The position numbers and the translations under genes are program-made. A stretch of 13,147 bases of DNA from an uncultured Coriobacteriales bacterium (GTDB lineage Bacteria; Actinomycetota; Coriobacteriia; Coriobacteriales; UMGS124): the NCBI GenBank assembly GCA_934662525.1, contig CAKUKJ010000023.1, forward strand, positions 1-13,147, in the 5' to 3' direction. Shown piece after piece: positions 2 to 12,711 of this stretch (the stretch's first letter is position 1; every line of letters begins with the position of its first letter). The notes under the pieces are model-generated. The model searched no databases, was not told where the DNA came from, and worked only from the letters and a program-made list of their open reading frames with translations.

Positions 2-1414
2 CTGGTCTTCGACCTCCCCGTGCACGGAGACTCCCGGGGCTGGTTCAAGGAGAACTGGCAGCGAGCGAAGCAGATGAACGTCGGCCTGCCCGACCTGGGC
101 CCGGTGCAGAACAACATAAGCTTCAACGCCGAGCGGGGCGTCACCCGCGGCGTCCACGCCGAGCCCTGGGACAAGTACGTGTCCGTGGCCACGGGAAGCG
201 TCTTTGGCGCGTGGGTGGACCTTCGCCCGGGCGAGTCCTTCGGGCAGGTGTACACCTGCGTCGTGGACCCCTCCAAGGCCGTCTACGTGCCCCGGGGCGT
301 TGGCAACGCCTTCCAGGCCCTGGAGGCCGGCACGGCCTACACATACCTGGTGAACGCCCACTGGTCCGCTGAGCTGAAGAAGACCTACACCTTCGTCAAC
401 CTCGCCGACCCCGCCCTGGGAATCGAGTGGCCCATACCGCTCGACCAGGCCGTGGTCTCCGAGGCGGACAGGCACCATCCCTACCTCAAGGACGTCGTCC
501 CCATGGCGCCCAGGCGCACCCTCGTGACCGGCGCCAACGGCCAGCTGGGCCGCGCGGTGCGCAGGCTCGTCGAGGAGCGCGGCCTCTCCGACTGCTTCGA
601 CTTCACCGACCGCGCCGAGTTCGACTTCTCCGACGAGTCCCAATACGGCAAGATCGATTGGTCCCTCTACGGCGCCGTCATCAACTGCGGCGCCTACACC
701 GCCGTCGACGCCGCCGAGACCCCGGAGGGCCGCCGCGCCGCCTGGGCCGCCAACGCCCAGGGCCCGGCGCTGCTCGCGAGGGTTTGCGCGGAGCATGGCA
801 TAACGCTCGTCCATATCTCCAGCGATTACGTGTTCGACGGGACTGAAGAGGAACATTCCGAGGCCGAGCCCTTCAGCCCGCTGGGTGTCTACGGCCAGAC
901 CAAGGCCGCCGGCGACCTCGCCGTGGCGAACTGCCCCAGGCACTTCATCGTGCGCTCCGGCTGGGTCGTCGGTGAGGGGAGGAACTTCGTCAGGACCATG
1001 GCGACCCTGTCCGACCGCTGCGCCGACCCCGACGACGGCCTGAACCAGGTCAAGGTCGTCGACGACCAGCTCGGCCGCCTGACCTTCGCGCGTGACATGG
1101 CCGAGGGCATCCTCTGGCTGCTCGGCTATCGCGAGGGCGACCGCGAGCCGAGTGAGCCATGCGCATACGGCACCTACAACCTCACCGGCTCCGGCAAAAT
1201 CGCCTCCTGGGCCGAAATCGCCGTGAGGGTGTTCGAGCTTCGCAACGGCAACGTTGATGTCGTTGAGTGTGTGTCGACTGTCGATTATTACGCTGGCATG
1301 AGGGGGTCTGTCGCCCCTAGGCCGCGCAATTCCGCGCTCGACCTCTCTAAGATTGAGGCCACAGGCTTCGTGTTGCGCGATTGGGAGGAAGAACTGAAGG
1401 AGCATATGGAGTAG
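2..1414 (+). CDS. Fused dTDP-4-dehydrorhamnose 3,5-epimerase / dTDP-4-dehydrorhamnose reductase (RmlC-RmlD), 5' partial
   Basis: Makes dTDP-L-rhamnose from dTDP-4-keto-6-deoxyglucose: the first half is an RmlC cupin epimerase, the second an RmlD NADPH-dependent reductase. The reading frame is open to the window edge and already reads as RmlC from position 2 (LVFDLPVHGDSRGWF), so the true start lies upstream. Numbering from position 2, RmlC signs are GDSRGWF, the catalytic-type His in RGVH (residue 52), the YVPRGVGNAFQ strand and the LADPALGIEWP close. The RmlD half starts about residue 168 (an ATG at 503), with the Rossmann loop GANGQLG (177-183), the SSDYVFDGT segment, the YxxxK pair (Y297, K301) and the usual RPRNSALDLSKI tail. 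RmlC-RmlD fusions are known in some Actinobacteria such as bifidobacteria. Base composition is high-GC, unlike the next three genes. The call is secure; only the N-terminus is missing. Confidence 0.93.
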   Translation: MVFDLPVHGDSRGWFKENWQRAKQMNVGLPDLGPVQNNISFNAERGVTRGVHAEPWDKYVSVATGSVFGAWVDLRPGESFGQVYTCVVDPSKAVYVPRGVGNAFQALEAGTAYTYLVNAHWSAELKKTYTFVNLADPALGIEWPIPLDQAVVSEADRHHPYLKDVVPMAPRRTLVTGANGQLGRAVRRLVEERGLSDCFDFTDRAEFDFSDESQYGKIDWSLYGAVINCGAYTAVDAAETPEGRRAAWAANAQGPALLARVCAEHGITLVHISSDYVFDGTEEEHSEAEPFSPLGVYGQTKAAGDLAVANCPRHFIVRSGWVVGEGRNFVRTMATLSDRCADPDDGLNQVKVVDDQLGRLTFARDMAEGILWLLGYREGDREPSEPCAYGTYNLTGSGKIASWAEIAVRVFELRNGNVDVVECVSTVDYYAGMRGSVAPRPRNSALDLSKIEATGFVLRDWEEELKEHME

Positions 1415-1471: not shown

Positions 1472-2635
1472 ATGCTCCCATATTATCTAGCCGCGTTCTT
1501 GATGACGTCCATTGCATGCGTGGATGTCTCCATGAGAGATGTCAAAAACAGCGCTCACATAGCGCTCAAAGTAGCCATTGTGCTCCTTGTTTCGCTCATG
1601 GCCGCCATGCGGGCCAACACTATTGGCACCGACCTTGGCGTCTATGGCTTGTATTCATATCTGGCAGCTCGACATACCTCCTTTTTAAGCTTCTTCAATG
1701 AGTCCATTTATGCGTCGTGGGCACCTATTTTCAAGGCGGTCACATGGATTTGTGCCCAAGTTTTCCATGATGTGGTTGGATACCTGTTTGTCCTGCAGCT
1801 ACTCACTATCGCTCCTGTGGTTTGGGCCTGTAGTAAGAGCTGCCCTCGCAGCTATCCAATTGCGATTGCAATCTACATGGTGCTCTTTCTTCCGATTAGC
1901 TTTAATCTGATGCGTCAGTCCATCGCGTCGGCCTTTCTGCTGCTCGCCTATTCGTTCCTCCAGGGGGGCTCCCGAAAAGGATTTCTCCTGTTCACCATAG
2001 TCGCTGTTGGTTTTCACTCTGCGGCGGTTATCGGTGTTCTCGTGTACCCGCTGTATCTGATTGGCTCCGACAGGCTAAAGATTCAGATTTCTTTGAAATA
2101 TGTTCTAGCCGTAATTGGAATATTGGCATGTGTGGGCGCTGTAATAGTTCTCTGTGCGCCTCAACTCGTTCGCGATCTTTTGGGACATTATGCCGCATAT
2201 TTTGACGCCTCGCTCATTAACCGTTCCGGTGGTAGGAGGGCAACGGCGGAAATATTCTTGTCCTATGTCATCATGGCAGTTTTCCTATACAGGATTCATT
2301 GTCAACAGAAAAGCCTGCCTGTCGAGAAGCATCTTTTTGAAGGCAATGACGCGGCAAATGCATGCGAAATTCAGCGTGTAAAACCTATCATGCTCATTGT
2401 GGCGGTTGGAGTGCTTCTTTGGGGATTAAGCCTGATTTCATTCTGGCTCTATAGGATTGGTTTGTATTTTCTTTTCTACATACTTCTGTCAGTCCCGCTT
2501 TCAGTCGAATCGATTGCAAGTCCTGCGGCGAAGAGGCTCTTTCTTGGCGTCTTTTTTGTCTTGCTGCTGCTGTGTTCGGCCGATTACTTCTTGATTCAGA
2601 ATTCGCATGAGGTGGTTCCTTATGTCCTACGATAA
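1472..2635 (+). CDS. EpsG-family polysaccharide polymerase (Wzy-type membrane protein)
   Basis: Predicted multi-pass membrane protein of 387 residues, probably the polymerase that joins flipped lipid-linked repeat units at the outer face of the membrane. It has many hydrophobic segments from residue 1 onwards, and EpsG-like landmarks: R47 followed by GTD (52-54) and Y58, the FNLMRQSIA motif (R148, Q149) in a membrane helix, and the FHSAA motif (H182). These match the EpsG/Wzy pattern of a conserved RQ helix and a downstream FH. The ATG at 1472 has a weak GAGG just upstream (1463-1466) and lies 57 bases after the rhamnose gene. The sequence is clearly AT-richer than the preceding gene. The 3' end overlaps the next gene by 14 bases. 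Sequence variability in this class prevents predicting the linkage made. Confidence 0.82.
   Translation: MLPYYLAAFLMTSIACVDVSMRDVKNSAHIALKVAIVLLVSLMAAMRANTIGTDLGVYGLYSYLAARHTSFLSFFNESIYASWAPIFKAVTWICAQVFHDVVGYLFVLQLLTIAPVVWACSKSCPRSYPIAIAIYMVLFLPISFNLMRQSIASAFLLLAYSFLQGGSRKGFLLFTIVAVGFHSAAVIGVLVYPLYLIGSDRLKIQISLKYVLAVIGILACVGAVIVLCAPQLVRDLLGHYAAYFDASLINRSGGRRATAEIFLSYVIMAVFLYRIHCQQKSLPVEKHLFEGNDAANACEIQRVKPIMLIVAVGVLLWGLSLISFWLYRIGLYFLFYILLSVPLSVESIASPAAKRLFLGVFFVLLLLCSADYFLIQNSHEVVPYVLR
2609..2615 (+). promoter_or_regulatory. Ribosome binding site choosing the start of the glycosyltransferase
   Basis: GAGGTGG lies 6 bases before the ATG at 2622. An in-frame ATG also exists at 2607, but it would place this site inside the coding region and has no comparable site of its own, so 2622 is preferred. 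Confidence 0.6.
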
Positions 2636-3662
2636 GATTGCGCTGGGGAAACAAGGCGCTGCCCTCGAGTCGCAGGCTGACCCCCTGGTCAGCATCTGTG
2701 TGACGACTTTCAATCATGCAGCGTATATTCGAGAAGCGATGGATAGTTTCCTGAATCAAATAGCCTCGTTTGAATATGAGATGCTGGTGCATGATGATGC
2801 GTCGACGGATGGAACAACTGAAATCCTAAAAGAATATGCATCTAAGTATCCCAAGACCGTAAGGCTTTTTCTAGAAAAAGAAAACCAATGGGGCAAAGGT
2901 ACTTATAAAGGGGGATATAACCGTGGCCTGCTTGTCCCTAATGCTCGTGGCAAATACGTTGCCTTTTGCGAGGGAGACGATTGCTGGCTAGACCCGCATA
3001 AACTTCAGAAGCAAGTTGAGTATTTGGATGGGCATCCAGACGTTGTGTGGTCTTGCCATGCCGCAAAAGTTGTGGATGGCAAGACGGGAGAAGAAATTGC
3101 GACGATGGGAATGGGTGATATTGAGCACGACTTGAGCCAAGAGGAGATAATCGCACACTGGAATGTTCCAACTGCCAGCTGGATGTATCGGACTGGCCTG
3201 TTGGCCGGCCTTGCTGATGAGTGGGCATTCGATATGCCGGCGAGTGATTTTCCCAGCGTTCTCTACGGGTCTCTCCTTGGGAAGGTTCACTATAGTCCGG
3301 ATAAAATGTCGCTCTACAGATATCAAACCCCCGGATCCTATACCTCAAGAACTACCTCTGGTAAGGCCCAGCTTGGAAATTGCTATCGATGGCTCGACAT
3401 GTATTCGGCTATCGATCAAGCGACCGCCAACAGGTGGCACGAGCAGTTTTTGCTCGCGTCGCGAGCGTATTTGCGAAATGTGCTTGTCTTGGATGACCAA
3501 ACACATCTTACAAATTTTGCTCGTGAGGGGCTCGCTTCGTTATGCGCCGCTGATAAATTGAAGATTTTTGTACGCCGTAGCCTGAGGAAGTTTGGGTTCG
3601 ATCTCGTTCCTATCGGATTTGGCCGTGATGCCGCACATCGCTTCGTCAAGGTGGAGCAATAA
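2622..3662 (+). CDS. Family 2 glycosyltransferase (GT-A fold)
   Basis: Cytoplasmic transferase of 346 residues that adds one sugar to the growing lipid-linked repeat unit from a nucleotide-sugar donor. The GT-A nucleotide-binding domain fills the first half: PLVSICVTTFNHAAYI near the N-terminus, DDAS with D58-D59, and EGDD (D119-D120) as the metal/donor-binding DxD equivalent, followed by WLDPHKLQKQ. There are no membrane segments. The C-terminal half is helical and less conserved, so donor and acceptor cannot be read from sequence. The start is set by a strong ribosome binding site (2609-2615), giving a 14-base overlap with the polymerase gene and probable translational coupling. It is the only glycosyltransferase here, so the priming and other transferases must lie upstream of the window or elsewhere. 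Confidence 0.9.
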   Translation: MSYDKIALGKQGAALESQADPLVSICVTTFNHAAYIREAMDSFLNQIASFEYEMLVHDDASTDGTTEILKEYASKYPKTVRLFLEKENQWGKGTYKGGYNRGLLVPNARGKYVAFCEGDDCWLDPHKLQKQVEYLDGHPDVVWSCHAAKVVDGKTGEEIATMGMGDIEHDLSQEEIIAHWNVPTASWMYRTGLLAGLADEWAFDMPASDFPSVLYGSLLGKVHYSPDKMSLYRYQTPGSYTSRTTSGKAQLGNCYRWLDMYSAIDQATANRWHEQFLLASRAYLRNVLVLDDQTHLTNFAREGLASLCAADKLKIFVRRSLRKFGFDLVPIGFGRDAAHRFVKVEQ

Positions 3663-3664
3663 GA

Positions 3665-5143
3665 ATGGCTGGGTGTTCGTTGGAGGAGGGCAACCTAAAA
3701 AGCAGAACTGTCTCATCTCTTGCATGGAAGTTGCTGGAAAGGGGTGGGAACTCTCTCGTTCAACTGGTTGTCCAGATCGTTATGGCGCGGTTGTTGGCGC
3801 CGGAGGAATTCGGCGCGCTGGCAATCATACTGGTCTTTGTAAATCTGGGGAATGTGATTGTCCAATCAGGTCTGAACACCGCGCTCGTCCAGGCACAAGA
3901 GGTTGATGAGACTGACTACTCGACGGTGTTCTGGCTGAGTTTTGGAACCTCCCTCGTGCTATTTGCTATCGTGTTCGTAAGCGCGCCTGCAATCGCGGTC
4001 TTCTATGAGATGCCGGACATCATCTGGCCTTTGCGGACATTGGGCCTCCTCCTTTTGGTGACGGCATTCAATTCCGTGCAAGTGGCAATCGTCCAAAGAG
4101 AGCTGCGCCTTCGCAAGGTCTTTATTGCCACACTAGTCTCTGTCTTTGTTTCTGGAACTGTTGGAATTGCTGCAGCCCTTGTTGGTATGGGGTTGTGGGC
4201 ATTGGTATTGCAGCAAATTGTTTACCAGGCGTTGAATTGCTTTGTCCTGTGGTTGCAGGTCAGGTGGGTTCCTTGCCTTGTGTTCGATGGGGCTAAGGCC
4301 TACAGGCACTTTGTCTATGGGTGGAAGCTTCTCGTCTCCGGCCTGCTCGACCAGGGCTATCAATCCTTGTCTGATTTGATTATCGGCAAGCAATTCAGTA
4401 CAGAAAGCCTCGGTCTCGTATCTCAGGGCAAAAAGTATCCGCAAGCGGTAGGGAGCATGTTGGATGGCGCAATACAGCCAGTCATGCTTTCTGCCGTTTC
4501 GCGCGTTCAAGATGACGTAGCTTATGTGAAGCGCCTCGTCCGGAGGGCATTGAAAACTTCGACCTTTTTGATCGTGCCTTCGATGACGCTGTTTGCTGTG
4601 GTTGCCGAGCCTACTGTCAGAATTCTGCTGGGCGACAAGTGGCTCTCCTGCGTGCCGTTTCTACAGATGTACTGCTTCGTATATGCCCTGCTTCCCATTC
4701 ACACCACAAATCTGCAAGCATTGAACGGGATGGGTCGAAGCGACTTGTTCTTGAGACTCGAGCTGATTAAAAAAGCCTACGGAGTTTGCGCGATTCTGAT
4801 TGCAGCTTTCGTTTTTCGGGATGTTTATGCGATGGTCGCCATGTACATGATAACGGGTGTCATCTCGACGTTTGTGAATGCTTGGCCCAATAAGCAGGTC
4901 ATCGGGTATTCATATGGAGAGCAGGTGCGCGATATCGCCCCGGCATTCCTTCTGTCCTTGGTGGCAGGCGGCGTCGCGCTTCTTTGCGGTTTACTCGTCG
5001 ATACGCCCATACTAAGAATCCTTATCGAGGTTGCAGCTATGTCGCTGACATATTTAGGGTTGGCGCGCCTATTTCGCGTAGAGACGTTGGGATACCTGCT
5101 GATGACGGCGAGGGAGGCACTCGACTCACGTAAACAGCGATAG
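3665..5143 (+). CDS. Wzx-type polysaccharide flippase (MOP superfamily, WzxC/RfbX-like)
   Basis: Integral membrane protein of 492 residues, expected to move the undecaprenyl-linked repeat unit across the membrane for the polymerase at 1472. The N-terminal segment SSLAWKLLERGGNSLVQLV, then ARLLAPEEFGALAII and LVQAQEVDETDYSTVFW, are typical of the WzxC-like branch of the MOP exporters. About a dozen or more hydrophobic helices continue to the C-terminus (for example around 80-105, 115-130, 155-180 and 420-470). The ATG begins 2 bases after the glycosyltransferase stop, with GGAG at 3653-3656 serving as ribosome binding site. It is the last gene of the AT-richer block. A teichuronic-acid or exopolysaccharide role cannot be distinguished from capsule. 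Confidence 0.9.
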   Translation: MAGCSLEEGNLKSRTVSSLAWKLLERGGNSLVQLVVQIVMARLLAPEEFGALAIILVFVNLGNVIVQSGLNTALVQAQEVDETDYSTVFWLSFGTSLVLFAIVFVSAPAIAVFYEMPDIIWPLRTLGLLLLVTAFNSVQVAIVQRELRLRKVFIATLVSVFVSGTVGIAAALVGMGLWALVLQQIVYQALNCFVLWLQVRWVPCLVFDGAKAYRHFVYGWKLLVSGLLDQGYQSLSDLIIGKQFSTESLGLVSQGKKYPQAVGSMLDGAIQPVMLSAVSRVQDDVAYVKRLVRRALKTSTFLIVPSMTLFAVVAEPTVRILLGDKWLSCVPFLQMYCFVYALLPIHTTNLQALNGMGRSDLFLRLELIKKAYGVCAILIAAFVFRDVYAMVAMYMITGVISTFVNAWPNKQVIGYSYGEQVRDIAPAFLLSLVAGGVALLCGLLVDTPILRILIEVAAMSLTYLGLARLFRVETLGYLLMTAREALDSRKQR

Positions 5144-5218: not shown

Positions 5219-6349
5219 ATGTCCGACCGCATTCTGGTAACCCGCTCCTCCATGCCGACGTTGGAAGAGTATGTTGAGGAGATAGCTCCGCTTTGGGAGA
5301 GCCACTGGCTCACCAACATGGGCGTGGAGCACAAAAAGCTCGAGGCGGCGTTGAAGGAACGCTTGGGAGTACCTAACCTGGCCCTGTTCACCAACGGGCA
5401 CAACGCTCTTGAATGCATTTTGGAGGCCATGGCCCTGCCCCAAGGTGGCGAGGTCATCACCACGCCGTTCACGTTCGCATCCACAACGCATGCCATAGTG
5501 CGTAAAGGGCTGACCCCGGTGTTCGCCGATGTGCGGCCGGGCGACCTGACGCTGGATCCCGAGTCAATCGAGAAGATGATAACCCCGCGCACGTGCGCAA
5601 TTGTGCCCGTGCATGTCTATGGCGACCTGTGCGATGTGGATGCTATTCAGGAGATTGCCGACAGGCATGGCCTGAAGGTCGTCTACGATGCCGCTCACGC
5701 GTTCGGTGTGGAGCGCCGCATGCCCGATGGTTCCTGGCGCTCCGCCGCGTCTTTCGGCGATGCGGCCATGCTTTCCTTCCATGCGACCAAGGTGTTCAAC
5801 ACGATTGAGGGCGGCTGCGTCTGCTTCAAGGACGCAGGGCTCTACGATACGCTCAACCATTGGAAGAACTTCGGCATCACCGGCCCGGAAGACGTCGTCT
5901 ACGTGGGTGGCAACGCCAAGATGAACGAGTTCTGCGCTGCCATGGGCGTGTGCAACCTGAGGCATCTGGACGTCGAGATAGCCAAGCGGAAGAAGGTCGC
6001 CGAGTGCTACTGGGAGCGTCTGGAGGGCGCATCGGGCGTAACGGTGTTCAAGCCGGGCGAGGGTGTAAAGCACAATTACGCCTACCTGCCCGTCTTGTTT
6101 GACCCCGAGGTATTCGGTGCTACGCGTGACGACGTGTTCGATGCGCTCGATGCCGTCAGCGTCGGTGCCCGCAAGTATTTCTACCCGCTGGTGAGCGACT
6201 TTGCTTGCTACCGCAGCGTCTACTCCTCCGACCGAACCCCCGTGGCGAAGAGGGCGGCGTCGCAGGTGCTGACACTGCCCATGTATGCCGACCTTGCGCT
6301 CGCCGATGTCGACCGTATCTGCGATACCGTGCTGGGGTGCGGTCGATGA
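5219..6349 (+). CDS. DegT/DnrJ/EryC1/StrS sugar aminotransferase, VioA/FdtB-like
   Basis: PLP enzyme of 376 residues that most likely transfers an amino group from L-glutamate to a keto sugar nucleotide. It is a full-length fold-type-I protein: substrate loop near the N-terminus (SHWLTNMG), TNGHNALE phosphate-cup region, TTPFTFASTTHAI, the PLP-ring aspartate in DAAHAFG (D157, H160), and the Schiff-base lysine in SFHATKVFNTIEGG (K191). The wording of these motifs is closest, from memory, to VioA and FdtB, which act on dTDP-4-keto- or 3-keto-6-deoxyhexoses. The former is also the substrate of RmlC, encoded at 2-1414, so an amino-6-deoxyhexose branch from the rhamnose route is plausible. GC rises again relative to the flippase gene. 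It overlaps the next gene by 4 bases (ATGA). The exact sugar is inferred. Confidence 0.9.
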   Translation: MSDRILVTRSSMPTLEEYVEEIAPLWESHWLTNMGVEHKKLEAALKERLGVPNLALFTNGHNALECILEAMALPQGGEVITTPFTFASTTHAIVRKGLTPVFADVRPGDLTLDPESIEKMITPRTCAIVPVHVYGDLCDVDAIQEIADRHGLKVVYDAAHAFGVERRMPDGSWRSAASFGDAAMLSFHATKVFNTIEGGCVCFKDAGLYDTLNHWKNFGITGPEDVVYVGGNAKMNEFCAAMGVCNLRHLDVEIAKRKKVAECYWERLEGASGVTVFKPGEGVKHNYAYLPVLFDPEVFGATRDDVFDALDAVSVGARKYFYPLVSDFACYRSVYSSDRTPVAKRAASQVLTLPMYADLALADVDRICDTVLGCGR

Positions 6350-7578
6350 GCGGTTCCCAAAGGTCTATTCTCATGCTGGGGGGTTCGCGCCAGCAGGTGG
6401 TGGCGATAGAGAAGGCAAAGGAGTTGGGTTTCCGCACTGTGCTGTGCGACTACCTGCCCGATAATCCCGGTCAGTATGCTGCTGACGTGTTTTACCAGGA
6501 GAGCACGACCGATCGCGAGCGAATGCTGGAGATCGCACGGAAGGAAAATGTGAGCGGCGTGCTGGCGTATTCCAGCGATCCGGCCTCGCCCACAGCAGGC
6601 TATGTGGCTGAGGCCATGGGGCTTCCCACCAACCCTCTGAAAGCCATAGAGACCATGTCGGAGAAGCATCTGTTCCGCGCTTTCTTGAAGAAGGCCGGGC
6701 TTCCTTGCCCGCAGGCAGTGCCGTTTGCCAAGGATGCCTCGGCGGAGGAAGTGGGTGTGTTGACCCGGGGTTTTCACTTCCCGATTGTGGTGAAGCCCAC
6801 CGACTCGTCAGGCTCGAAGGGCGTCAGTGTTCTCGAAGACTTGTCGGGGCTTGACGCGGCTATCGCGCATGCCGGGAGTTTCTCTCGTAACGGCATGCTC
6901 ATCTGCGAGGAGTATATACGCAAGACCTTTCCGCACGTGATAGGGGGTGACATCTTCGTCGTTGACGGCGTGGTGCGTTTCTGGGGTTTGATGTCATGCC
7001 TGCGCGACGAGGGTTTGGGAGGGCTCGTCCCGGTCGGGGAAAAAACCCCTTCCGGGCTCTCTACCGGTGAGTGTGTCGCCGTGAAGGACGTCCTGCAGCG
7101 CCTTGTGGCTGCGCTGGGTGTGCGCTTCGGTGAGCTGAACGTGGAGGTCATCGTGGGCGAGGGCGGCGTGCCCTATGTCCTCGAGCTGGGCAGCCGCGCT
7201 GGAGGCAACATGATTCCCGTGCAGCTCTCCGACGCCAGCGGGGTAGACCTGGTGGCTGCCAATGTCTTGTGCGCCATGGGCGAGAACCCGGGTGACGTGG
7301 CATGGGACTCCGCCGAGTGCGCTGGCGCCTATGCCACGTATGTGCTGCATTCAGGCGTAGAAGGCGTGTTCAGAGGGGTGGAGAAATCCGAGGCGGTTAA
7401 ACCCCACGTATATCGTGAGGTCTTATACAAGGAGCCCGGTGAGGCTGTCGAGGCTTTTGACGGGGCCAACAAGGCGTTGGGCATCGAGTTTCTCAGATTT
7501 GCCGATGAGGCGGAGATGAATCCGATGCTTGAGGCCATATCGCGAGAGATGAGACCCGTGGTGGAGACTGCCCGATGA
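6346..7578 (+). CDS. ATP-grasp ligase (first copy)
   Basis: Predicted cytoplasmic carboxylate-amine/thiol ligase of 410 residues, activating a carboxylate as acyl phosphate with ATP. An N-terminal pre-ATP-grasp Rossmann-like domain begins ILMLGGSRQQVVAIEKAKELG. The ATP-grasp domain follows: VVKPTDSSGSKGV with K150 and a glycine-rich lid, the CEEYI adenine-contact segment, and the metal site LELGSRAGGN with E280 and N288, all intact. The C-terminal 100 residues form a further domain typical of biotin-carboxylase/PurK-like ligases. The ATG at 6346 overlaps the aminotransferase stop (ATGA); upstream in-frame starts lie inside that gene and are rejected. The substrates are not readable from sequence. 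The position between two aminotransferase-fold genes suggests it conjugates an amino acid or other acid to the aminotransferase product. Confidence 0.85.
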   Translation: MSGSQRSILMLGGSRQQVVAIEKAKELGFRTVLCDYLPDNPGQYAADVFYQESTTDRERMLEIARKENVSGVLAYSSDPASPTAGYVAEAMGLPTNPLKAIETMSEKHLFRAFLKKAGLPCPQAVPFAKDASAEEVGVLTRGFHFPIVVKPTDSSGSKGVSVLEDLSGLDAAIAHAGSFSRNGMLICEEYIRKTFPHVIGGDIFVVDGVVRFWGLMSCLRDEGLGGLVPVGEKTPSGLSTGECVAVKDVLQRLVAALGVRFGELNVEVIVGEGGVPYVLELGSRAGGNMIPVQLSDASGVDLVAANVLCAMGENPGDVAWDSAECAGAYATYVLHSGVEGVFRGVEKSEAVKPHVYREVLYKEPGEAVEAFDGANKALGIEFLRFADEAEMNPMLEAISREMRPVVETAR

Positions 7579-8540
7579 GGCGCGAGATAGGCGGTTATCT
7601 GGAGCTTGAGCGGTTCTCGGGCCCGATGCTGCACGAGGGCGACATCGCCCTCAACTGCGGAAGATCCTGCCTGGAGTACCTGATTGAGCTGCGCGGCATT
7701 CGGGTCATTTGGTTGCCCGATTTCCTATGCTCGTCTGTCTCAGGCCTTTGCCGCAAAGTTGGCGTCGAGGTCAAGGAATACCGGGTCAGTGCGGGCTTCA
7801 AACCTGCCTCCGACATCGAGGTCGGTAGAGGCGAGTGGCTCTACCTCGTAGATTATTACGGCCAGCTTACCAAAGCCGATGTAGAGTCAGCGCTGGGCGT
7901 TGCCGATGGTCGCCTGATAGTCGATGAGTCGCAAGGCTATTATCGCGAGCCTTGGGGTTATGCCGATACACTCTATACCTGCCGAAAATGGTTTGGTGTG
8001 GCGGACGGTGCCTTCTTGCACACGCACGACGGCGCACGCCTCGGTCGTGAGCTGCCACACTCGGAGTCCCATGACAGGATGGGCTTTGTGCTGGGGCGCT
8101 TTGAGCGTGCGGCGGGGGAATACTTCGCGGAGTCAAAGGCGAACAATGCCAGGTTTGCCGAAGAACCCATGGCCGACATGTCGGGATTGACGATGAACCT
8201 TCTGCATGCGTTTGACTATGAGGCCGCCAAGGTTCGCCGCTTGGCAAACTGGGAGGTTCTGAACGATGCGTTGGGGCCGAGGAACCGTCTTGCGCTTGCA
8301 AGGCCCGAGGTTCCGTTCATGTACCCTTATATGGCCTGTGATGCCGACGGTGTACGGGGGAGAATGGCCGCCGAGGGTGTATACATCCCGATGCTTTGGC
8401 CAAACGTGCCTGACGACCCCTGTGCTGGTTCTGATGCAGTTGCCTACTCAAAGAACATACTGCCCTTGCCTGTTGACCAGCGGTATGGGGCCGAGGACAT
8501 GAAGACCGTGTTGGAGGTGCTTACCCGATGCTTGGAGTAA
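7575..8540 (+). CDS. Short divergent aminotransferase-fold protein (DegT-like)
   Basis: 321 residues, shorter than the roughly 360-400 usual for DegT enzymes, and probably missed as an aminotransferase by simple inspection. The fold-type-I landmarks are in order: ALNCGRSCLEYLI matches the phosphate-cup start, VIWLPDFLCSSV the next strand-helix, LIVDESQGYY supplies a PLP-ring aspartate (D117) with Q120 in the stacking/hydrogen-bond position, and CRKWFGVADGAFL offers a lysine (K138) where the Schiff base belongs. The C-terminal half (after about 220) is a small domain ending PLPVDQRYG, as in sugar aminotransferases. It may be a true transaminase or dehydratase-like PLP enzyme on a second sugar or amino acid. 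It overlaps both neighbours (4 bases ATGA upstream, 13 bases downstream), so it belongs to the same translational unit. Confidence 0.7.
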   Translation: MRREIGGYLELERFSGPMLHEGDIALNCGRSCLEYLIELRGIRVIWLPDFLCSSVSGLCRKVGVEVKEYRVSAGFKPASDIEVGRGEWLYLVDYYGQLTKADVESALGVADGRLIVDESQGYYREPWGYADTLYTCRKWFGVADGAFLHTHDGARLGRELPHSESHDRMGFVLGRFERAAGEYFAESKANNARFAEEPMADMSGLTMNLLHAFDYEAAKVRRLANWEVLNDALGPRNRLALARPEVPFMYPYMACDADGVRGRMAAEGVYIPMLWPNVPDDPCAGSDAVAYSKNILPLPVDQRYGAEDMKTVLEVLTRCLE

Positions 8541-9868
8541 AGGGATATGCCGAAGGCAGTATGATGAGCTGCTTGCAAGGCGCATCTGCGCGGGAGTCGG
8601 AACCGCGACCCCTTGAGGGCAAGCGCCTTCTCGTGATTGGTGCGTCGCACAACGAGATTGATTTGGTGAGGCGCGCCCAGGAGCTTGGGGCTTACGTGGT
8701 AGTTACCGATAACCATGAGGATTGGGATGATGCGCCTGCCAAGCGCGAAGCCGACGAGGCATGGAATATCAGCTGGTCTGACATTGACGCAATGCAGGCT
8801 GCGTGCGAAACCTCCCGTATAGATGGGGCCACTGCGGGATACAGCGAGTTTCGTTGCGAAAATCTCATCAAACTTTGCGATCGCATGGGCTGGCCATGCT
8901 ATCTCACCTCCGAGCAGCTTGAGATTACGAGGGACAAGGTCAAGTTCAAGGAGACATGCCGCAAGTACGGCGTTCCAACCGTCGAAGAGTGGCATTCGGT
9001 AAACGAGGTCGATTCTTTCCCCGTTATCGTGAAGCCGGTTGACAGGGGCGGCTCGATCGGCATCAGCATAGCAACAAACAGCGAGGAATTGCGCGCGGCA
9101 TATCAGTACGCGATGTCTATGTCCGTGTCCAAGCAGGTGATTATCGAGCGGTTTCTGCAAGGGCAAAAGATGGATGTCTACTATGCCATCGAAGATGGCG
9201 AGATTCGCATACTGACCACGAACGACGCAATCAATGCAAGTGACAATGGCTTCGAGAGGGTTGTGCAAAGCGCCTGGCTCTATCCCGAGAAGCACATGCA
9301 TGCGCTTGTCGAGAAGGAAGACGAGCATATGCGGGCGATGATTCGCGGCATGGGCATCACGAACGGGTGCATCTTCTTCTCTGGTTTCGTTGGGCCGGCT
9401 GAAGAGTTCTCCTTCTTTGAGTGTGGCTTTCGTCTTGAGGGTGGCCATCAAGACGAGTATGTGAGTCATCGCGGCCCCTACAACTTCCTCGATTTGTTTA
9501 TATACCACGCCTTGTTTGGAAACGTTCGCTTGGTAGAACGCAAGGAGGTGGACGACCGTCTCAAATGCGTCACGGTCAACTTCTATGCAAAGGCTGGAAC
9601 CATTGGTTCCATTTCGGGAATGGAGAGGGTTGCCGAACTTCCGGATTGCACGCTGGCTCGGGCTTTTGGTCGCATCGGGCAGGAATGCAAGGATGACAGG
9701 GCGATTCTGTCGAAGGTGGCAATGGCTTCGTTCGCGAATGAGGATCCGACTGCGCTCAAGGCGGACATTGATGAGTGCTATCGTCTGTTCGCACTGCGCG
9801 ATACCAATGGGCGTGATATGGTTTACGATAGGATTGACACCGATGCCATCTTGGATTGGTGGTCGTGA
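8528..9868 (+). CDS. ATP-grasp ligase (second copy, carbamoyl-phosphate-synthase-like subfamily)
   Basis: 446 residues from the ATG at 8528. GGAGG at 8513-8517 is 10 bases upstream; the in-frame ATG pair at 8561/8564, with GAAGGC at 8552-8557, is an equally good start and would remove about 12 poorly conserved residues. The order is a pre-ATP-grasp domain (LLVIGASHNEIDLVRRAQELG, then DDAPAKREADEAWNIS), the ATP-binding segment VIVKPVDRGGSIGI with K169, and FFECGFRLEGGHQ at the metal site. There E298 is present, but the position that is usually Asn (ExN) is Gly300. The C-terminal domain includes GPYNFLDLFIYHALFG. It is only distantly similar to the other ATP-grasp gene, so it is not a recent duplicate. 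I expect a ligase acting on a glycan precursor; the substrate is unknown. Confidence 0.82.
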   Translation: MLGVKGYAEGSMMSCLQGASARESEPRPLEGKRLLVIGASHNEIDLVRRAQELGAYVVVTDNHEDWDDAPAKREADEAWNISWSDIDAMQAACETSRIDGATAGYSEFRCENLIKLCDRMGWPCYLTSEQLEITRDKVKFKETCRKYGVPTVEEWHSVNEVDSFPVIVKPVDRGGSIGISIATNSEELRAAYQYAMSMSVSKQVIIERFLQGQKMDVYYAIEDGEIRILTTNDAINASDNGFERVVQSAWLYPEKHMHALVEKEDEHMRAMIRGMGITNGCIFFSGFVGPAEEFSFFECGFRLEGGHQDEYVSHRGPYNFLDLFIYHALFGNVRLVERKEVDDRLKCVTVNFYAKAGTIGSISGMERVAELPDCTLARAFGRIGQECKDDRAILSKVAMASFANEDPTALKADIDECYRLFALRDTNGRDMVYDRIDTDAILDWWS

Positions 9869-11223
9869 TGGGGCTGCATGCGGTAGACTTGCTCTACGAC
9901 TTCGCCATCGCGGCGGCGCTGTTGTTTGCCGCGAAGGTCTTGCGCTGCAAGCTCCGCTTCATCCAGCGCGCCTACATACCCGCCGCGCTTCTGGCCGGCT
10001 TCCTGGGCCTGCTTCTGGGCCCGCAGTTTCTCGACGTCCTGCCCTTCAGCGGGGAGATTGGAAACTATCCATCCATCCTTATCGCGGTTCTGTTCGGATC
10101 GATGTTCGTGGGCACGAGGGGCAAGGTGTCGGTCAAGTCGGTGCTCAAGGGCGCAGGCGATACGATGCTCGTCAACGGGGCGTCGGAGATGATGCAGTTC
10201 GCGGTTTTCGTTCTTGTCGGCGTGACCGTGCTGCCGATGGTCTTTGACGGTATCAACGACGCGTTCGGCCTGATGCTGCCCGCCGGCTTTGTGGGCGGCC
10301 ATGGCACTGCGGCTGCCATCGGCGGCGTGTTGGCCGACGCGGGCTGGGCCGACGCCTCGACCATCGGCCAGACGTTCGCCACCGTGGGCCTGCTCGGGGG
10401 TATCCTCCTGGGCGTGGCACTCATCAACCTCGGCGCGCGCAGGGGCTGGACCAAGGTCATCAAGGGCGTTGACGAGCTGCCCGAGGAGATGCTGACGGGG
10501 CTGGTACCCGAGGACAGGGCTGCGCCCTTGGGCAAGAGCACCACCAACGGCGTGAGCATCGATTCCCTGACGTGGCACGCCTGCCTGGTGCTGGTGTCCG
10601 TGGGCATGGCCTACCTGGTGAACGAGGGGCTGAAGACCGTCCTTCCCGGCGTGTCGTTCCCTACGTATGGTCTGGCGCTGCTTTGCGGCATCGTGGTGCA
10701 GCTCGTGCTGAGGGCCGTCGGGCTCGATTCCAACGTGGACAAGGACGTGATTACCCACATCGGCAGCTCCGCGACGGACTTCCTGGTGGTGTTCGGCATC
10801 GCGTCGATCAAGGTGAGCGTGGTCGTGCAGTACTGGGTGCCCATCGTGGCGCTGTCTGTCCTTGGTTTCCTGTTCGTGACGGTCTGGCTGCTGCTGGTGT
10901 CGCGCCGCTTCTTCCGCAGCTACTGGTTTGAGCACGGCATCTACATTTTCGGCATGTCCACGGGCGTGCTTGCTACGGGCGTCATCCTGCTGCGCATCAC
11001 CGACCCCGAGTTCCGCACGGGTGTGCTTGAGGACTTCGGGCTGGCGTGGATTGTGTTGTCGGTGATGGACGCGCTGTTGGTGGCGCTTGCTCCGGTGTTC
11101 GTGTTGGCAGGTCAGGGCATAGGTTTCTCGCTGGCGTTGATGGCTGCGTCTGCTGCGGCGCTTGTCTCATGCAAGCTGGTGTTCGGGCACAAGAGCCGGG
11201 GGAAGGAGAGCCCGGGGGTTTGA
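9868..11223 (+). CDS. gltS: Sodium/glutamate symporter family protein (GltS-like)
   Basis: Integral membrane carrier of 451 residues, expected to move glutamate (or a related dicarboxylic amino acid) with sodium. It consists of hydrophobic helices throughout, with the family signature GFVGGHGTAAAIGG at about 145-158 and a second inverted half containing the HIGSSATDFLVVFGIASI segment, consistent with the two-repeat GltS fold. The ATG shares one base with the preceding stop (TGATG) and has GGTGG at 9858-9862. An earlier TTG/GTG start in the same frame would run into the ATP-grasp gene and is not needed. Standing as the last gene of a PLP/ATP-grasp operon is unusual and suggests glutamate supply (amino donor or ligase substrate) for that pathway. 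Transport of another acidic amino acid is possible. Confidence 0.88.
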   Translation: MGLHAVDLLYDFAIAAALLFAAKVLRCKLRFIQRAYIPAALLAGFLGLLLGPQFLDVLPFSGEIGNYPSILIAVLFGSMFVGTRGKVSVKSVLKGAGDTMLVNGASEMMQFAVFVLVGVTVLPMVFDGINDAFGLMLPAGFVGGHGTAAAIGGVLADAGWADASTIGQTFATVGLLGGILLGVALINLGARRGWTKVIKGVDELPEEMLTGLVPEDRAAPLGKSTTNGVSIDSLTWHACLVLVSVGMAYLVNEGLKTVLPGVSFPTYGLALLCGIVVQLVLRAVGLDSNVDKDVITHIGSSATDFLVVFGIASIKVSVVVQYWVPIVALSVLGFLFVTVWLLLVSRRFFRSYWFEHGIYIFGMSTGVLATGVILLRITDPEFRTGVLEDFGLAWIVLSVMDALLVALAPVFVLAGQGIGFSLALMAASAAALVSCKLVFGHKSRGKESPGV

Positions 11224-11411: not shown

Positions 11412-11937
11412 ATGATGGGCAAGCGAATCGAAGGCGTCAAGCTTGAGAACTATGGGCCGTTGAGGACGCTGCATTGTCCACAGTTTTCGAACCTCAACCT
11501 ATTCATAGGGGATAATGGCCAAGGCAAGACGTTCCTGCTCAAAGGGCTGTACGCTACGATACGTGTGATGGAGCTGCATGGCCGCGGGGATTCCAACGAG
11601 AAGCGGAACGATTTGCTGGCAGACAGGCTCCGGTGGACATTCCAGTTCGACAAGCTCGGCGACCTTGTAACGAAAGGCACCGACACACTAAAGATGGATT
11701 TGCTTACCAGCGCCGGGTTGATTTCATGCTCCTTTTCAAGCTCGGCATCGGTGCAGATCAACAGCGTGGCGGGAGACGGTGGCCCGTTTGAGGGCGACTC
11801 CATCTTTGTGCCCGCCAAAAAGGTCCTCTCGGTTGTAAAGTCCGGCATCCCCTGCCTTTGCGCCGTTCTTCTTAGTTCATCCATGGCGTCTTGTGTTTGA
11901 TGGTGTATCATCTGAGCTAGAAGAGAAATCGGCCTGA
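11412..11937 (+). pseudogene. AAA15/OLD-like ATPase remnant with internal deletion and frameshift
   Basis: The start is the ATG at 11412 (or 11415), preceded by GGAG at 11402-11405. Residues 1 to about 142 are the N-terminus of an AAA15-type SMC-like ATPase: an ENYGPLRTL strand, then Walker A GDNGQGKT (33-40, K39), FLLKGLYATIR, RWTFQFDKLGDLV, and SIFVPAKKVLSVVKS, a motif that in intact relatives is followed by roughly 200 more residues with Walker B and a switch histidine. Here the frame passes straight into GIP...SSMA and stops at 11898. One base out of frame, the sequence FDGVSSELEEKSA runs to a TGA at 11935-11937. GIP, SSMA and FDGVSSELEE resemble the C-terminal tail of such ATPases (usually DGIPxNPIxxxSxxLF), so I infer loss of the middle plus a one-base shift. 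No ATPase activity is expected. Confidence 0.65.
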
Positions 11938-12039: not shown

Positions 12040-12711
12040 TTGACGATTACAGCGGTTCTGGTTGACGGCAACTTCTAGCTTCATAGGGCAAGAACCCTTT
12101 GGGGAGAGAAACCGGCAAAAGACAGGGCTGCTGAATTGCATGCATACGCGCTCAAACACATAACGGCCCGGCGTGAATCAAAGTTCGAACTTGAGAAGCG
12201 CTCTCTTTACAGGATTTTCTACTATGATTGCCCGCCCTTGATGGAAGGCAGCGTTCACCAGCCCTGGGATGGCAGGACGCGCAGCTTTAGCAGAAATAAC
12301 CCGTCAAATCTATGGAGCTCTGAGTTTCAGGGCGAGCTTGGGGACATGCGCAAGGTTGCCATGCGCATGGGTACTATCATGGCGAAGAACATGGCGTTCA
12401 CCCTCAAACAGGAATCGCTCAAAAGGCTCATGCGCGACGAGATGTCCGTCTCCGATTTGTGCGAGAAGGACTTCGTTCTGACGGGCATCAAACAATCGGG
12501 GGTTGACATGAGAATAGGCCTCGATGTCGCCTCCCTGTCATCCAATCGGATCGTGAATCAGATTGTACTTATCGCGGGCGATTCCGACTTTGTCCCTGTG
12601 GCGAAGGCGGCTCGTCGTGCAGGAGTTGACTTTCTGATTGACCCCATGGGTCATCACATTTCCAAGGAGCTTCGAGTTCAGGTTGATGGTATCGAGGATT
12701 TAACGGTTTAG
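12040..12711 (+). pseudogene. NYN-domain (PIN-like) nuclease gene interrupted by an in-frame TAG
   Basis: Read from TTG at 12040, the frame gives TITAVLVDGNF, then TAG at 12076-12078 (codon 13), then LHRARTLWGEKPAKDRAAELHA without a frameshift to the stop at 12709-12711, 223 residues in all. NYN proteins act as metal-dependent RNases with a ring of acidic residues. Those residues are visible: D9 in VDGNF, D156 and D162 in GVDMRIGLD, and D181 and D183 in AGDSDF, followed by the typical ARRAGVDFLIDPMG strand. An aromatic residue usually follows the VDGNF-type motif, so the TAG probably replaced a Tyr codon (TAC/TAT) by one substitution. Restart at the TTG at 12136 would yield 191 residues lacking D9. 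It lies 102 bases after the ATPase remnant on the same strand. A sequencing error is the main alternative to true decay. Confidence 0.75.

Follow-up and report, generated by a model that had tools for sequence, protein, structure and literature searches.

What is made by an operon in which two pyridoxal phosphate (PLP) proteins alternate with two ATP-grasp ligases and a GltS-like carrier closes the row? The question is raised by a stretch of 13,147 nucleotides from an uncultured Coriobacteriales bacterium (contig CAKUKJ010000023.1 of assembly GCA_934662525.1; the whole stretch is referred to as the window), which represents a surface-polysaccharide locus on the forward strand, with the glycan genes first and the five-gene operon (g5 to g9) behind them. 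The operon, and the part of it that is exchanged with respect to the nearest relative of the window among the loci examined (L116), comprise:

5219..6349, forward strand: g5, DegT-family sugar aminotransferase (DesI/VioA-like; PF01041), predicted maker of dTDP-4-amino-4,6-dideoxyglucose (dTDP-Qui4N)
6346..7578, forward strand: g6, conserved ATP-grasp ligase adjoining g7 (Pfam, tree), predicted to carry out the first aminoacylation of the sugar amine
7575..8540, forward strand: g7, short PLP protein with a DegT fold (fold, PLP residues), partner of g6 or of WbqC
8528..9868, forward strand: g8, variable ATP-grasp ligase (Pfam, tree), predicted to carry out the second acylation
9868..11223, forward strand: g9, GltS-like elevator-type carrier (relatives, fold), predicted to provide a ligase with glutamate or a similar acid
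6325..9874, no strand assigned: stretch exchanged relative to L116 (blastn blocks on either side)

The reading that we favour, at a probability of about one half, is that the operon equips a 4-amino sugar, destined for a Wzx/Wzy-type surface glycan, with a peptide-like side chain, and does so in two steps. First, g5 would convert dTDP-4-keto-6-deoxyglucose to dTDP-Qui4N by transamination, and g6, together with g7, would attach the first amino acid to the amine of the sugar. A second acid would then be joined by g8 to the amine of that first residue, as a cap, and g9, which is kept beside such ligases, would supply the acid used by g8, for which glutamate or a closely related dicarboxylic amino acid is the likeliest candidate. 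Elsewhere, WbqC would stand in for g6, and a GNAT acetyltransferase, or other ligases with cargo genes of their own, for g8 and g9. The reactions and substrates of this scheme are predictions that build on observed gene content, invariant PLP lysines, gene order and gene replacements, and on predicted folds. A preliminary description of the stretch had proposed a single amidation of the amino sugar; the acylation is retained here, and two attachments, by g6/g7 and then by g8, fit better than one.

The individual proteins bear out that description as far as the motifs are concerned, which it had called intact. The g5 protein matches the DegT/DnrJ/EryC1/StrS family PF01041 with 302.5 bits (cut-off 19.8; E 6e-90), its PLP lysine (K191) is invariant across 16 sequences and the best PDB match of its profile is DesI (2po3), in keeping with the VioA-like aminotransferase that had been claimed. 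Both ligases are ATP-grasp proteins according to Pfam (g6: PF02786, 26.2 bits, cut-off 19.8; g8: PF07478, 45.1 bits, cut-off 24), and the ATP-binding lysine and glycine loop are retained in the nine ATP-grasp sequences shown. The g7 protein (321 amino acids, aa) has the DegT fold with a PLP lysine and aspartate, K138 and D117, that are invariant in 29 sequences; it matches no Pfam family at E ≤ 1, PF01041 included, and lies outside NCBIfam as well. Its family counts 2709 proteins and 548 genome matches without a Pfam entry, and no relative was found in a viral scan. The four overlaps that had been reported (g5/g6, g6/g7, g7/g8 and g8/g9: 4, 4, 13 and 1 bases) are present in the sequence, the 13-base one hinging on the first ATG of g8. 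An alternative ATG at 8561, preceded by GAAGG, would leave a 20-base gap after g7 and is favoured because its product of 435 aa comes closer to the lengths of the homologues (417-435 aa in 95 of the 120 listed); judged by these lengths, the overlap of 13 bases may owe its existence to the choice of start codon.

To what extent do these genes belong together? A genome scan with the g7 alignment recovered 548 relatives, of which the 80 best loci were kept and analysed together with the window (81 loci). Genes were called with hidden Markov models, calls by longest open reading frame (ORF) having been rejected because they produced antisense artefacts where the G+C content is high. Immediately upstream of g7 we found an ATP-grasp gene in 54 loci, WbqC in 9 and something else, a contig edge or nothing in 18; directly downstream there was an ATP-grasp gene in 29, a GNAT in 12 and a DegT gene in 12. 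Within 10 kb of g7 occurred: DegT (65/81), Wzx (47/81), RmlB (34/81), RmlA (26/81, a count that is too high since the model also picks up another kind of protein, cluster c29) and the carrier (2/81). The combination of ATP-grasp, g7, second ATP-grasp and DegT was present in 24 of the 64 loci that had enough flank, the window included and 17 short loci dropped. Cultured carriers of the core include Blautia parvula NBRC 113351 (L069) and Granulicatella balaenopterae DSM 15827 (L036), the latter with a g8 orthologue at 55% identity. All five genes were found in a single one of the 80 loci (L064), in the order g6-g7-g9-g8-g5 and with a g6 that is just 35% identical. The full set is rare and the core is common: in the neighbourhood search that had been suggested as a check, the five families are not in general conserved together, and the four without the carrier recur as a group. 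In a tree of 124 ATP-grasp sequences (those under 330 aa dropped), all 57 ATP-grasps upstream of g7 fell within one clade of 67 members (support 0.965) that contained none of the 29 downstream ones, and g8 grouped with proteins of L002, L036 and L064 (support 1.0). The pair g6-g7 is the conserved part of the operon and g8-g9 its variable part.

The same loci bear on another explanation, in which the product is a diamino sugar: g5 and g7 would each introduce one of its amino groups, and the two ligases would acylate one amine apiece. It would account for the joint presence of two PLP proteins and two ligases, and for the PLP lysine and DegT fold that g7 has kept, and is nevertheless improbable: in 17 of the 64 loci that have g6, g7 and DegT, neither a g8-type ligase nor a GNAT was counted in the 2.5 kb downstream, and the recurrent neighbour clusters showed no oxidase or isomerase able to make a second position accessible, although no search was aimed at one.

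A comparison at the DNA level shows which part of the operon is exchanged. In L116 (genome G703, from the family of G214) the Wzx (71% identity), DegT (88%) and carrier (87%) proteins are kept, and one other ATP-grasp gene (325 residues) stands where the window has g6-g7-g8. The blastn blocks (5219-6324 and 9875-11194, 78-80% identity) show that DNA identity stops at the end of the DegT gene and resumes at the carrier, the part in between measuring 3.55 kb in the window and 1.02 kb in L116. Judged from these alignments, window and L116 differ by a cassette swap, with g6-g7-g8 as an exchangeable block between DegT and carrier.

Which chemistry could such a block provide? WbqC takes the place of the upstream ATP-grasp in nine loci, and the two co-occur in only one of the ten WbqC loci (L052); L023 and L059 are examples of gut loci with a WbqC. 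In Escherichia coli O121 the gene order is rfbB-rfbA-DegT-WbqC-GNAT-wzx, the DegT protein sharing 40% identity with g5 and the WbqC 41-44% with the three proteins that match it best among the WbqCs in the position of g6. The substituents of Qui4N that are listed in a review (PMC3210612) include N-acetylglycyl, with the O121 polysaccharide cited as source, and N-[(R)-3-hydroxybutyryl]-L-alanyl, from Hafnia alvei 1205; because the latter is a known substituent, acyl-aminoacyl chains on Qui4N do exist. The simplest reading of O121 would be that DegT makes Qui4N, WbqC adds the glycyl and GNAT the acetyl group. Pairs of WbqC and g7 extend beyond the gut Firmicutes, since Proteus mirabilis H63 has one (L117; order DegT-GT2-WbqC-g7, GT2 being a family 2 glycosyltransferase), in a locus that we take to lie behind cpxRA-like genes and to hold genes resembling those for UDP-L-FucNAc synthesis. 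A distant DNA search with this Proteus stretch against E. coli found nothing, and WbqC has no solved relative by sequence.

A different view of the ligases is that they amidate the carboxyl of a glycan uronic acid, as an ATP-grasp amidoligase does in the capsule of Campylobacter, or make a free dipeptide, with g7 providing the amine and the amino sugar of g5 belonging to a separate branch. The resemblance of g6 to the L-amino acid ligase 3vot (E 1e-13) speaks for it; we consider it doubtful all the same, as g5 to g8 follow one another with overlaps or almost without a gap and are repeatedly accompanied by DegT and, in 34 of the 81 loci, by RmlB, and as the replacement by WbqC and GNAT matches the N-acylation of Qui4N in O121. 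Within the two-step side-chain scheme, g7 most likely makes or amends the first residue and, because O121 manages without it, probably sets which first residue is used; this role is the weakest step of the scheme. Between g6 and g7, L005 (8742-9971) and L074 (8765-9964) carry proteins of 400-410 aa that match no Pfam family and look alike by eye.

For g8, the homologues themselves indicate what may happen to the second residue. A GNAT domain is fused to 18 of the 120 homologues listed (612-633 aa; P0157 and P0172 among them), and in L002 the g8 orthologue is followed by a separate GNAT, homologous to that of the fused proteins, as expected if the residue added by g8 leaves a free amine. The preliminary idea that a ligase replaces an acetylation step is supported: the ligases stand where relatives have acetyltransferases, and none of these was present among the ten window proteins scanned. 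At E ≤ 1e-70, a single genome among the 391 in the class of G002 contained an orthologue of g8, as did none of 296 in the class of G001, a set that holds no control, although the query does match G002.

The carrier g9 itself matches no Pfam family at E ≤ 1, PF03616 included, and its membership comes via close relatives: the 87% identical protein of G703 reaches 53.1 bits (cut-off 26), and 16 of the 27 aligned members match. The carrier of the locus is the sole PF03616 match in all six genomes searched; no PDB sequence was found with the carrier profile. An ATP-grasp gene lies within 6 kb of all eight near relatives of g9 (42% identity or more, from genome searches: the window, L064, L102, L103, L104, L105, L106 and L116) and of none of the seven distant relatives examined (14 distant places found). 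The ATP-grasp models that were used here stem partly from the same loci; Pfam finds ATP-grasp domains in the neighbours of the carriers in L102, L104 and L116. These neighbourhoods were weighed against the view that g9 serves only to provide the aminotransferases with glutamate as source of the amino group, or ended up beside the locus by chance. In favour of this view, glutamate is a common donor for DegT enzymes, and DegT and carrier are the genes common to the window and L116. That view is unlikely in our opinion: DegT occurs near g7 in 65 loci and the carrier in 2, all eight near relatives of g9 have their ATP-grasp, two of them (L104 and L105) with no DegT gene within 6 kb, and cytosolic glutamate is abundant. 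In L104, which holds an ATP-grasp gene, RmlB and RmlA, an ornithine/diaminopimelate decarboxylase-like PLP protein (7217-8407) directly precedes the GltS-like carrier and might act on a ligated residue; the gene order around the carrier is similar in L105. In L106 (G248:C15, 19509-20838) the GltS-like gene lies in two frames, from a broken gene or an assembly error.

Other loci carry other genes near g7: a citrate/DASS-type carrier (L003), an APC amino-acid permease about 5 kb downstream (L005), an enolase-superfamily enzyme with an octopine dehydrogenase (L043), MmgE/PrpD with a phosphonopyruvate decarboxylase (L042), and HpcH/HpaI with a MaoC-like protein (L033; MaoC labelled by eye from the sequence). 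Most of them lie past the second ATP-grasp gene, either before DegT or after it, and they look like an exchangeable supply of different acids to a ligase. Contigs of equal size recovered in the three protein searches suggest, as no more than supporting evidence (a shifted control yields 0.5-0.7 matches on average, maximum 4), that g7, g8 and g9 lie on one contig of 12200 bases, g8 and the carrier on two (36993 and 14761) and g7 and the carrier on one (17610). It is tempting, and still tentative, to extend the gene exchanges to a combinatorial peptidyl-sugar system shared by gut bacteria, in which the aminotransferase and the polymer machinery stay fixed, a conserved pair acts as starter (ATP-grasp or WbqC, with a short PLP enzyme of a new class) and the capping units are exchangeable, each coming with its own ligase and a carrier or acid-making enzymes. 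If true, the side chain of one surface sugar would be altered by swapping cassettes. Since it is the surface glycans that phages, antibodies and hosts encounter on gut bacteria, a decoration cassette that can be swapped would be relevant to the variation of these glycans.

Several observations weigh against the two-step side chain. Two of the four loci of the g8 clade (L002 and L036) have no carrier, and none was matched elsewhere in their genomes; conversely, G703, G214, G216, G090 and G194 have near carriers and no g7, in a search whose two positive controls do match. The 17 loci without a counted g8-type ligase or GNAT belong here as well, although one of them (L006) has ATP-grasps of another Pfam type (ATPgrasp_ST) downstream. 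The set of 80 consists of the loci with the highest scores, which come for the most part from animal-gut metagenome-assembled genomes, and the counting profiles were built from the same loci. The top NCBIfam of g5, DesI (TIGR04427), is matched with 272 of the 650 bits of its equivalog cut-off. Finally, the 43-kb stretch of O121 contains no g7 relative, ATP-grasp of this kind or carrier, and the O121 anchor does not directly fix the roles of g7, g6 and g8 because none of them has a counterpart there.

The surface-glycan setting itself, which had been proposed from the start, is supported by the genes upstream of g5:

20..1414, forward strand: RmlC-RmlD fusion of the dTDP-rhamnose branch (PF00908 and PF04321), its 5' end possibly cut at the window start; a single reading frame joins the two parts
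1472..2635, forward strand: EpsG-type (Wzy-like) polymerase (PF14897, E 1.9e-31)
2607..3662, forward strand: GT2 (PF00535, E 8e-23)
3665..5143, forward strand: Wzx-type MOP flippase (PF13440, E 1.8e-90; 71% identity to that of L116)

Downstream of g9, an AAA_15-type ATPase starts (11412-11900; E 2e-5, under the Pfam cut-off) and stops after 162 aa, with several stops in the same frame further on, and so resembles a remnant or a gene that has been truncated; it is followed by an NYN-domain protein (12136-12711) that matches only the later part of the profile.

How, then, does the operon relate to known systems? As a whole the preliminary interpretation is partly supported, and a literature search, judged from its listings, gave no description that we recognised as this five-gene set. 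N-acyl and aminoacyl chains on 4-amino-4,6-dideoxyglucose have long been known from glycan chemistry, and to our knowledge the genes that build the aminoacyl chains are mostly unassigned. With DesI (2po3) and other DegT sugar aminotransferases g5 shares the fold and the PLP lysine, although it scores under the DesI equivalog cut-off; g7 is only 11-19% identical to the solved DegT structures listed. The viosamine pathway (VioA-VioB) likewise has a DegT 4-aminotransferase acting on dTDP-4-keto-6-deoxyglucose, as predicted for g5, whereas the window has ligases and, among the ten proteins scanned with Pfam, no acetyltransferase. The ATP-grasp amide ligases (3vot and 4dim by sequence, Ddl-type profiles) have the ATP-grasp profile and ATP-binding motifs in common with g6 and g8, which reach no NCBIfam cut-off in the families shown and for which amide formation is a prediction. 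The Na+/glutamate symporters of the GltS family (PF03616) and, by fold, AspT and CitS share the elevator-type fold with g9, which differs in sitting in glycan loci beside ATP-grasps. The O121 locus resembles the window in combining a DegT gene, a first-acyl gene and a cap gene in a Wzx/Wzy locus, and differs in having WbqC for g6, GNAT for g8 and neither g7 nor carrier; in the window, neither WbqC nor GNAT was found among the ten proteins scanned or by profile search, the ATP-grasps being there instead. The neighbourhoods allow WbqC and GNAT of O121 to be read from gene to structure and, through the replacements, suggest roles open to testing for two classes of ATP-grasps, the large g7 family of PLP proteins and the carriers beside the ligases. 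In this respect the operon extends the known pathways for N-acylated amino sugars and does not found a new kind.

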